Part shown: in pieces, positions 1-58,530 of the stretch | Layout: every line of letters starts with the position of its first letter | Numbering within the stretch: position 1 is the stretch's first letter | NCBI GenBank assembly: GCA_018241325.1 | Contig: JAFEEB010000010.1 | Span: forward strand, 1 to 64,000 | Reading direction: 5' to 3' | DNA length: 64,000 bases | Origin: Pseudomonadota bacterium | GTDB lineage: Bacteria; Pseudomonadota; Gammaproteobacteria; Burkholderiales; Burkholderiaceae_C | Notes under the pieces: model-generated | What the model was told of the DNA's origin: nothing | What the model saw: only the letters and a program-made list of their open reading frames with translations | Databases searched by the model: none | Made by a program: the position numbers and the translations under genes

Positions 1-730
1 GCTCGATCTGGCCCAGGTCGTCGAAGATGTCGGCGTGGTCGAACTCCAGGCTGTTCAGCACGGCCGTGCGTGGGCGGTCGTGCACGAACTTGCTGCGCTT
101 GTCGAAAAACGCGGTGTCGTACTCGTCCGCTTCGATCACGAAGAGCGGGCGCGCTTGCCCTTGTGCCAAGGTGCCCAAGCGCGCCGAAATGCCGAAATTC
201 AGTGGCACGCCACCCACCAGAAAGCCCGGGGTGAGCCCAGCCGCTTCCAGCACCCAGGCCAGCATGGAGGTGGTGGTGGTCTTGCCGTGCGTGCCGGCAA
301 CGGCCAGCACGTGGCGGCCGGCCAGCACGTGCTCGGCCAGCCACTGCGGGCCGCTGGTGTAGGGTGCGCCGGCGTCCAGGATGGCTTCCATCAACGGATA
401 TTTCGGAGCCCCCACGCTCCCCACTTCGTGTGGTTCGTTGCCCCCCAAGGGGGCTGGCCCGCCTTGGGGCGGCCCGGCGGCGGGCCGGGCGCCTCCATCC
501 GCCAGGCGCGCGCGAGAAACCACGTTGCCGACCACGAACAGATCGGGCTTGAGCGCCAGCTGATCGGCGCCATAGCCCTCGATCAGCTCGATGCCCAAGG
601 CGCGCAGTTGCTCGCTCATGGGCGGGTACACGCCGGCGTCGCAACCGGTGACGGTGTGGCCGGCTTCGCGCGCCAGCGCGGCCAGCCCGCCCATGAAGGT
701 GCCGCAAATGCCCAGGATGTGAATATGCAT
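1..730 (-). CDS. mpl: UDP-N-acetylmuramate:L-alanyl-gamma-D-glutamyl-meso-diaminopimelate ligase, N-terminal part
   Basis: Cytoplasmic murein-recycling ligase that joins the recovered tripeptide L-Ala-gamma-D-Glu-mDAP to UDP-MurNAc. The gene runs off the left edge, so only the first 243 codons are present. The N-terminus (MHIHILGICGTFMGG) is the family's Rossmann start, and the ATP-binding GTHGKTTT lies at residues 146-153. Later EADEYDTAFFDKRSKF and LNSLEFDHADIFDD match the Mur ligase central domain. The odd point is residues 74-111, a run of about 38 Gly/Pro/Ala-rich residues between VVSR and PLMEAILD, where E. coli Mpl has only two. The run is encoded by a repeat element and the frame stays open on both sides, so the protein is probably made with an extra surface loop. 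The gene is separated from msrQ by inverted repeat A1. Confidence 0.93.
   Translation of the reverse strand, partial: MHIHILGICGTFMGGLAALAREAGHTVTGCDAGVYPPMSEQLRALGIELIEGYGADQLALKPDLFVVGNVVSRARLADGGARPAAGPPQGGPAPLGGNEPHEVGSVGAPKYPLMEAILDAGAPYTSGPQWLAEHVLAGRHVLAVAGTHGKTTTTSMLAWVLEAAGLTPGFLVGGVPLNFGISARLGTLAQGQARPLFVIEADEYDTAFFDKRSKFVHDRPRTAVLNSLEFDHADIFDDLGQIE
398..511. repeat. GC-rich palindromic repeat (family D) inserted in frame in mpl
   Basis: This 114-bp stretch has no counterpart in normal mpl genes and consists of consecutive short hairpins: CCAC-ttcg-TGTGG near 421-433, CCCCC-aa-GGGGG near 442-453, and a GGCCCG/CGGGCC palindrome near 471-486. Its length is a multiple of three and it has no stop in the mpl frame. 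I recognise the general type (CCCCC-AA-GGGGG followed by an ACGAACCACACGAAG-like tract) as a common intergenic repeat of Comamonadaceae, from memory only. No second copy is visible in this window. Confidence 0.75.
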
Positions 731-767
731 GGGGCGATTCTATTGACGCGACAGACAACAGCCGGCA

Positions 768-942
768 ACAGCCGGACGCAGAGGAGGCGAAAAAATCGTA
801 GAGGACGCAAAAAAACCCGGCCAGATCACTCTCAAAACGAGAGCATCTTGCGGTGAATCCGTAAGGGTTTAGCCAGTTCCAACTGGATTCTTGAATTTTT
901 TGCGTCTTTTGCGAAACCTTTGCGTCTTCTGCGTCCGGCTGT
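768..942. repeat. Long imperfect inverted repeat A1 with a diverged B core
   Basis: The 15-base arm ACAGCCGGACGCAGA at 768-782 recurs inverted at 928-942. Beyond it, both arms continue as degenerate GACGCAAA-type units and meet in an A/T-rich junction. Between the arms, 836-882 is a diverged copy of repeat B (GCATCTTGCGGTGAATCC... TTTAGCCAGTT). The element fills the gap between mpl and msrQ. It is the first of three such elements here (others at 14584-14776 and 40905-41076). Confidence 0.8.
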
Positions 943-58137: not shown

Positions 58138-58287
58138 GCTCCCTCGTCCCTCTGCGGAGAGGGCGGGGGTGAGGGGCGAGCGGCGTCTGTCGGGGCTCAC
58201 CGGTCGTGCCGCCACCCCAACCCTCCCCCAGCGGGGGAGTGGGAAAGGCCCGCACCCCAACCCTCTCGCGCGGGCGAGAGAGGGGGC
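58138..58287. repeat. GC-rich repeat C3, unit 1
   Basis: 150 bases beginning GCTCCCTCGTCCCTCTGCGG and ending GGGCGAGAGAGGGGGC, composed of several CCCTC...GAGGG hairpin arms. It is about 89 percent identical by eye to unit 2 and in the same orientation. It lies directly before prmC. Confidence 0.8.
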
Positions 58288-58346
58288 AAAGCAGCGCCGT
58301 CGAGTGCACCTGCCGGAATCGACTGAACACGATCGTGCGCGGCCTG

Positions 58347-58496
58347 GCTCCCTCGCCCCTCTGGGGAGAGGGTTGGGGTGAGGGGCCGGCGGCGCCTGTT
58401 GGGGCTCATGGGTCGCGCCCCCACCCCAACCCTCCCCCAGCGGGGGATGGGGAAAGGCCCTCACCCCAACCCTCTCCCGCGGGCGGGAGAGGGGGC
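58347..58496. repeat. GC-rich repeat C3, unit 2
   Basis: 150 bases beginning GCTCCCTCGCCCCTCTGGGG and ending GGGCGGGAGAGGGGGC, a direct repeat of unit 1 with roughly 17 mismatches. The equal length and order point to tandem duplication of one composite element. Confidence 0.8.
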
Positions 58497-58530
58497 GAGA
58501 GCGCAGGGGGGCATGGCTTGGAAACTATCA

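Follow-up and report, generated by a model that had tools for sequence, protein, structure and literature searches.

A dispersed palindromic repeat lies in frame within mpl and many other genes of a Burkholderiales bacterium

RESULTS AND DISCUSSION

The mpl gene of a bacterium which, judged by its Mpl, is a member of the Burkholderiales near Comamonadaceae contains an in-frame insert, likely a recently gained copy of a dispersed repeat that is GC-rich, approximately 84 to 87 bp long, composed of three hairpins, and without a gene of its own. In the same genome, copies of this repeat are located both between genes and, at 33 of 57 sites, in frame within genes, the products of which include numerous core enzymes. 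The explanation that we consider probable as a whole combines a repeat copy resembling the betaproteobacterial repeat element (BRE), its translation as a loop, and selection of the reading frame. Where the repeat has landed inside a gene, translation would give the host protein a flexible loop in which Gly, Pro, Ala, and Ser abound, and selection would remove those landings which shift the frame or which produce a more charged or Cys/Trp-rich peptide. The copies that survive would thus be intergenic ones and intragenic ones that lie in the single frame tolerated on each strand.

The insert in mpl

The stretch of DNA analyzed here (the window; 64,000 nucleotides, contig C1:1-64000) begins at the contig start, which cuts mpl and leaves its second half outside the data. 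The available 243 codons specify Mpl residues 1 to 243 (TIGR01081, E 6.5e-96), and the reading frame remains open through the insert (Table 1). The Mpl chains of PDB entries 3eag and 3hn7 align on both sides of the insert, covering residues 1 to 74 (2 to 74) and 113 to 242 and skipping the stretch between them, which agrees with the original prediction that the flanking family sequence is intact. That prediction had further assigned residues 74 to 111 to an inserted element of 114 bp at positions 398 to 511, adding a loop of 36 residues. The insertion itself is borne out by the alignments, but these boundaries are 30 bp too wide, as comparison with the empty site of the nearest relative, G005 (locus L112), yields a net gain of 84 bp, or 28 residues rather than 36 to 38. 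Residues 74 to 78 and 108 to 111 represent a linker that is also present in the relatives, in which it reads GNVVSRARLADGTPKYPLMEA or is close to that or shorter.

None of the 56 relatives that were read (56 of 80 fetched loci) has the insert at this site, nor is it present in 23 of the 24 same-genus Mpl loci, that of the sister genome included, so that the additional residues were not encountered in orthologues free of the repeat; the 24th locus (L117) lay outside the search pattern, and its gene is contiguous at the site. A sequencing artefact in the own genome (G000) is made less likely by inserts of the same kind in other genes of a complete one-contig genome and of named strains.

Table 1. 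Positions of mpl, the repeat copy, and its hairpins in the window
Feature	Position	Strand	Basis
mpl, first 243 codons	2..730	-	TIGR01081, 3eag/3hn7 alignments, contig start
Repeat copy matched by covariance model R1	404..489	+ (repeat orientation; antisense to mpl)	E 6.0e-13
Net insertion, 84 bp, 28 codons	413..496 (410-493 equivalent)	-	Alignment to G005 empty site, L112
Hairpin A	412..433	+	Minimum-free-energy fold of 404-495 (weak z-score, -1.8)
Hairpin B	440..454	+	Same fold; best conserved hairpin in copy alignment A1
Hairpin C	456..486	+	Same fold; arms covary between copies

An AlphaFold model of the Mpl fragment (63 sequences, mean pLDDT 75), for which Foldseek returned Mpl 3eag as the best match, sets the insert inside the N-terminal domain, between strand 64-67 and helix 112-120, and not near the junction of the Rossmann and ATP-binding domains as had been supposed. 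Residues 80 to 104 have pLDDT values under 50, while most of the first domain reaches 90 or more; residues 203 to 243 are also poorly modelled because the fragment is cut. Based on this model, our best guess is that the insert would form a tolerated disordered loop, and it is most likely that Mpl still works and that the loop does nothing useful.

The repeat family

When positions 398 to 511 were used as a BLASTN query, 40 of the 83 own-genome candidates were scored and gave 51 matches. A covariance model, R1, built from 41 aligned copies (alignment A1), was scored on 150 of 8223 candidates; at E<=0.01 it matched 71 times, in 12 cases with E above 1e-5, and merging reduced these matches to 57 sites. 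Tandem copies recur with a period of 87 bp; three or more are arrayed between an ABC transporter ATPase gene and a sigma-54 gene at L157:1377-1723. Across the genus, BLASTN detected the repeat in 24 of 29 genomes; across the family, the figure was 259 of 299, representing 128 of 141 genera. A comparison of window positions 200 to 800 with Rfam revealed nothing near gathering scores.

The Mpl copy is predicted to fold into the three hairpins listed in Table 1, with weak folding energies (z of -1.8 on one strand and -1.15 on the other); copy L144 has no advantage in folding energy over its own shuffles, and single copies generally fold hardly better than shuffles. The arms of hairpin C are complementary despite sequence variation, as 33 distinct arm pairs form 6.36 of 8 pairs, compared with 4.70 (sd 0.19, maximum 5.36 in 5000 shuffles) for shuffled partners, a comparison which ignores the kinship of the copies and therefore does not amount to a probability. 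In the copies at RecG and acyl-CoA dehydrogenase, the outer arm of hairpin C partly resembles host sequence and may be host-derived.

In-frame sites in the own genome

A strict codon-frame test, for which the codon model was trained on the window's own genes, identified 29 of the 57 sites at which the best frame before the repeat is also the best after it, free of stops and coding in both flanks. Four further sites (a second CopA site, CobQ, MurU, and PGK) were added by reading, resulting in the total of 33, of which the mpl insert, the one case seen in the original prediction, is a single member; the expectation that the element also stands between genes was correct. NCBIfam names 28 of the 30 proteins scanned at in-frame sites, Mpl itself being assigned by TIGR01081 and HrpA (L206) by eye only. 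The hosts include PEP carboxylase, a biotin-carboxylase-type protein, two acyl-CoA dehydrogenases, GlnE, deaminated-glutathione amidase, acetaldehyde dehydrogenase, RecG, RND permeases, CopA, UvrD, YbbP, MetX, MurU, PGK, GcvP, MutS, CobQ, RadA, thiolase, and two UvrA-family proteins, among others. Many of the protein-family matches are interrupted at the insert, with family matches on both of its sides.

For the 24 sites remaining, Pfam was applied to 30 ORFs next to the repeat, and three of these ORFs were without a match. Both neighbours were matched at 13 of these sites; they belong to different families at 11, while at L028 and L158 they belong to the same family, each covering the same part of the profile, which indicates two genes. 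No gene broken by the repeat was thus observed among the 13 sites settled by Pfam, the remaining 11, among which a broken gene may exist, being left unsettled by protein families. Intergenic copies often start no more than a few bases from the stop codon that ends the preceding gene, as at L022, L025, L155, L157, and other loci.

Empty sites and insertion scars

The flanks of the 29 in-frame sites defined by the strict test were searched in four same-genus genomes, and 27 sites proved to be free of the repeat in one or more of these relatives, whose sequence runs through the site, with the qualification that some rows may show a paralogue instead of the orthologue. The two exceptions are PEP carboxylase, which is split by extra sequence in G005 and is not listed for the other three genomes, and one acyl-CoA dehydrogenase, for which only a partial match was obtained. 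In G005, the sister of G000 on a tree of Mpl and MetX, 25 of the 29 sites are empty, three (PEP carboxylase, YbbP, and MurU) contain extra sequence, and one is unresolved; at MurU, G000 has two copies, and the extra sequence of G005 is as long as one copy.

DNA alignments covering 13 of the 33 sites showed net gains of 72 to 93 bp, most commonly 84 bp, and of 255 bp for a triple copy, the gain being a multiple of three in 24 of 26 alignment rows and not in the other two. No constant target duplication was apparent, a clear direct repeat being observed at GcvP only (16 alignments, 13 sites), and the ends of the repeat are not inverted copies of each other (alignment A1), on which grounds a MITE was rejected as a candidate. 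In G001, MetX (G001:C1:2050025-2050490) contains 94 extra bases at the shared site and is divided into two ORFs, possibly representing a frame-breaking insertion or an assembly error.

The frame rule

The repeat consensus contains no stop codon in any of its six frames. At 60 of the 61 in-frame sites (33 in G000, 18 in G004, and 10 in named strains), a single frame per strand is used, recognizable at hairpin B as APxGGS (antisense) or LPPxGA (sense), with MutS as the sole exception; eight of the 33 G000 sites had their frame read by eye, and a few copies have a decayed hairpin B. With six equal frames, the chance of at least 60 of 61 sites falling in two given frames is approximately 1e-27, or approximately 9e-27 when the choice of one frame per strand is counted, and it is approximately 1e-22 after the merging of shared sites. 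Among 14 intergenic copies, each of the four frames left unused is often open (in 11, 10, 8, and 14 copies), and stop codons alone, therefore, do not explain the rule. The used frames have the lowest net charge and, per strand, the fewest Cys and Trp residues; in the intergenic copies the charge gap is smaller (2.6 and 3.2 for the used frames versus 3.4 to 5.1). The simplest reading of these sequence data is that the peptides would be made and the harsher ones purged, although the insertion itself may be biased in phase and so be an alternative source of the rule. The existence of one preferred frame per strand renders selection on translated repeats measurable.

Recurring sites in other genomes

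In G004, a complete one-contig genome of the same genus, 18 of 25 sites, derived from 36 of 37 matches, are in frame. The repeat was also identified in seven of eight genomes of named records at E<=1e-5, namely, Polaromonas sp. OV174 (84 matches), Xenophilus aerolatus E41 (53), Hydrogenophaga pseudoflava (37), Variovorax sp. OK212 (15), Simplicispira hankyongi (10), Acidovorax delafieldii (6), and Paracidovorax konjaci (5), while Comamonas sp. BIGb0152 produced no match at this threshold. Of the sites in the named strains, 10 of 27 are in frame (six genera; Simplicispira, 0 of 2), as are 0 of 9 in G173, which belongs to another genus; both sets consist of the best matches, not a census, after the merging of overlaps (30 loci to 27 sites and 13 loci to 9 sites, respectively). 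The in-frame habit is uneven and, given the absence of in-frame sites among those of G173, not general.

The repeat occupies the identical place in G000 and G004 in GlnE, MetX, YbbP, and the protein of locus L010, and the MurU, HrpA, and CobQ sites of the two genomes lie within a few residues of each other. The YbbP site is also occupied in Xenophilus, the acyl-CoA ligase site in Polaromonas, and the GcvP site in Hydrogenophaga. Such shared sites might represent old inherited insertions which were often lost and whose copies were overwritten by gene conversion, as opposed to repeated new insertions, an alternative to which we accord a limited probability. The common YbbP place in G000, G004, and Xenophilus is compatible with inheritance, as is the HrpA pair, the copies of which are rather alike (0.872). 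Nevertheless, a survey of the genus implies at least seven, six, and three changes on the tree for GlnE, YbbP, and MetX, respectively; these counts derive from the presence or absence of extra sequence at the site, not from repeat identity in each genome, and from a quickly built tree in which 10 of the 24 inner branches are left open, and they cannot separate gain from loss, a blindness that leaves room for inheritance. Also opposed to inheritance are the opposite orientation of the CobQ copies of G000 and G004, the Mpl site being occupied in no other genome read, and the identity of same-site copies of G000 and G004 (0.71 to 0.87), which is similar to that of other pairs (0.78; sd 0.04, maximum 0.90, 97 pairs). 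On account of this last similarity, most same-site copies of these two genomes look independent, although gene conversion would give the same picture in sequence. That the Burkholderiales repeat is a general loop maker, with one low-charge, stop-free frame per strand and with independent returns to the same enzyme places across genera, is a speculative extension which we put forward as doubtful; if true, tolerance inside proteins has shaped the sequence of selfish DNA.

Tolerance of the insert by its host proteins

Several inserts adjoin conserved motifs, the repeat being located directly after DLNVP in PGK, just ahead of LVLMDE in MutS, and ahead of GAISAAPFG in GcvP. Among 13 genes checked in the own genome (assembly 96% complete), a close insert-free paralogue is present for MutS only (G000:C75:5237-5533, 64% identity), while UvrD and thiolase have distant ones (32 to 45%), and no insert-free copy was found for PGK, GcvP, GlnE, RadA, RecG, MetX, MurU, PEP carboxylase, Mpl, or the amidase. 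It is highly unlikely, in our estimation, that the repeat-bearing genes are decaying pseudogenes with frames that are open by luck: MutS, which alone breaks the frame rule, would fit this description in having an insert-free second copy, but it is the only such gene of the 13, and coding scores are high on both sides of the repeats. The possibility that the insert is removed from the RNA or skipped by the ribosome, such that no loop is made, would find a basis in the strong hairpins at the site and would account for tolerance near active sites, for example, those of PGK and MutS; it would, however, require neither net gains in multiples of three, nor open frames, nor the single low-charge frame per strand, and is regarded as extremely unlikely. 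Also improbable is the proposition that the loops are functional modules under positive selection, for example, for binding or regulation. Although the same genes are hit repeatedly at recurring sites, the host enzymes are unrelated, most insertions are private to one genome, as illustrated by the empty sites of G005, and the peptide is predicted by AlphaFold to be disordered. On the preferred explanation, in which the repeat would be translated as a loop and sorted by frame, one family of repeats may be able to supply functioning enzymes with numerous additional loops. For enzymes including Mpl, GcvP, GlnE, RadA, and PGK, the sites constitute natural data on insertion tolerance.

Relationship to known repeats

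The repeat is probably the BRE, to which it was matched by description (length, tandem arrangement, and hosts) and not by sequence. According to the accessible part of PMC3110155, the BRE is approximately 90 bp long (75 to 91 bp), occurs singly or in tandem with a copy number that varies per site, and is mostly intergenic, with some copies wholly within coding sequences, as noted in 2011; its hosts include Bordetella, Polaromonas (the most, 29), Delftia, Acidovorax, and others. The 87-bp periods and the two copies at MurU correspond to this length, tandem arrangement, and variable copy number, as do the many matches in Polaromonas (sp. OV174, 84) and the few in Acidovorax (A. delafieldii, 6) to the host range, although the species differ from those of the BRE paper. 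The frame, peptide, and empty-site analyses presented here have no counterpart in the portion of that text available to us.

The Rickettsia palindromic elements (RPE) are described, in the parts consulted of PMC10969869 and PMC3733652, as palindromic repeats in frame within unrelated Rickettsia proteins, with a length of approximately 150 bp and ten families. The resemblance to them that was proposed at the outset is upheld by the in-frame insertion of a palindromic repeat in many genes. As the host is a member of the Burkholderiales and not Rickettsia, and the likeness is one of behaviour, the repeat works like an RPE but is not classed as one. Intragenic GTAG/CGTC REPs, as portrayed in the available sections of PMC3733652, encode 20 to 30 residues or more, have repair genes among their targets, hit recB at about the same site in two Xanthomonas, and include copies which adjoin stop codons; they consist of 20- to 40-bp units with a GTAG or CGTC end, the GTAG ones often being located near RAYT genes. 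The present repeat is similarly found inside genes, repair genes included, at recurring sites, and by stop codons, and inspection by eye of the 41 aligned copies showed the GTAG/CGTC end to be absent. Mobilization by a RAYT was rejected, as the one Y1_Tnp gene of the own genome is on C39, where R1 has no match, and as G006, G008, G012, G015, and G022 have repeats without a Y1 match and G023 and G026 the reverse (some genomes being incomplete). The enterobacterial RU repeats (PMC2759123) are likewise small, open-frame repeats inside genes, from which the present repeat differs in that RU repeats are MITE-like and 103 to 168 bp long.

The event itself is of a known kind, since in-frame palindromic repeats are known in Rickettsia and among GTAG/CGTC REPs and since BRE copies occur in coding sequences. 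Its extent in Burkholderiales, the empty sites, the rule of one frame per strand, and the recurrence of sites across genera look new; no account of in-frame BRE copies was found in the literature searched, with subscription papers mostly outside that search. The repeat thus provides a case outside Rickettsia of palindromic repeats in frame in many core enzymes, with empty sites in close relatives, owing to which the gain of a 28-residue loop becomes datable and testable in culturable bacteria. For annotation, a warning follows that such peptides in Burkholderiales proteins can be repeat-born.

Further inserts and a second repeat family

A second loop of Mpl, before FVIEADEYD, is also a place where the repeat lies, either in frame or close by, in eight other loci (L054, L055, L063, L070, L131, L132, L134, and L135). 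Of these, L055 is from Xenophilus aerolatus E41, and L131 and L134 were placed by means of locus coordinates. In this second loop, Hydrogenophaga and Rhodoferax (L043 and L044) have a common insert containing SAQVKEEPAxRAGDTE, which is different from the present repeat and perhaps belongs to another repeat family. Within the window, a second family of GC-rich palindromic repeats was observed at positions 58206 to 58500, between prmC and prfA (both on the minus strand). Its peptides, for example, PSPQPSPASGRG and PLPLAGEGWGEG, occur in frame in several of the proteins that also bear the first repeat (L003, L020, L027, L144, and L152), and 22 matches to its hairpin were recorded among the own-genome loci examined.
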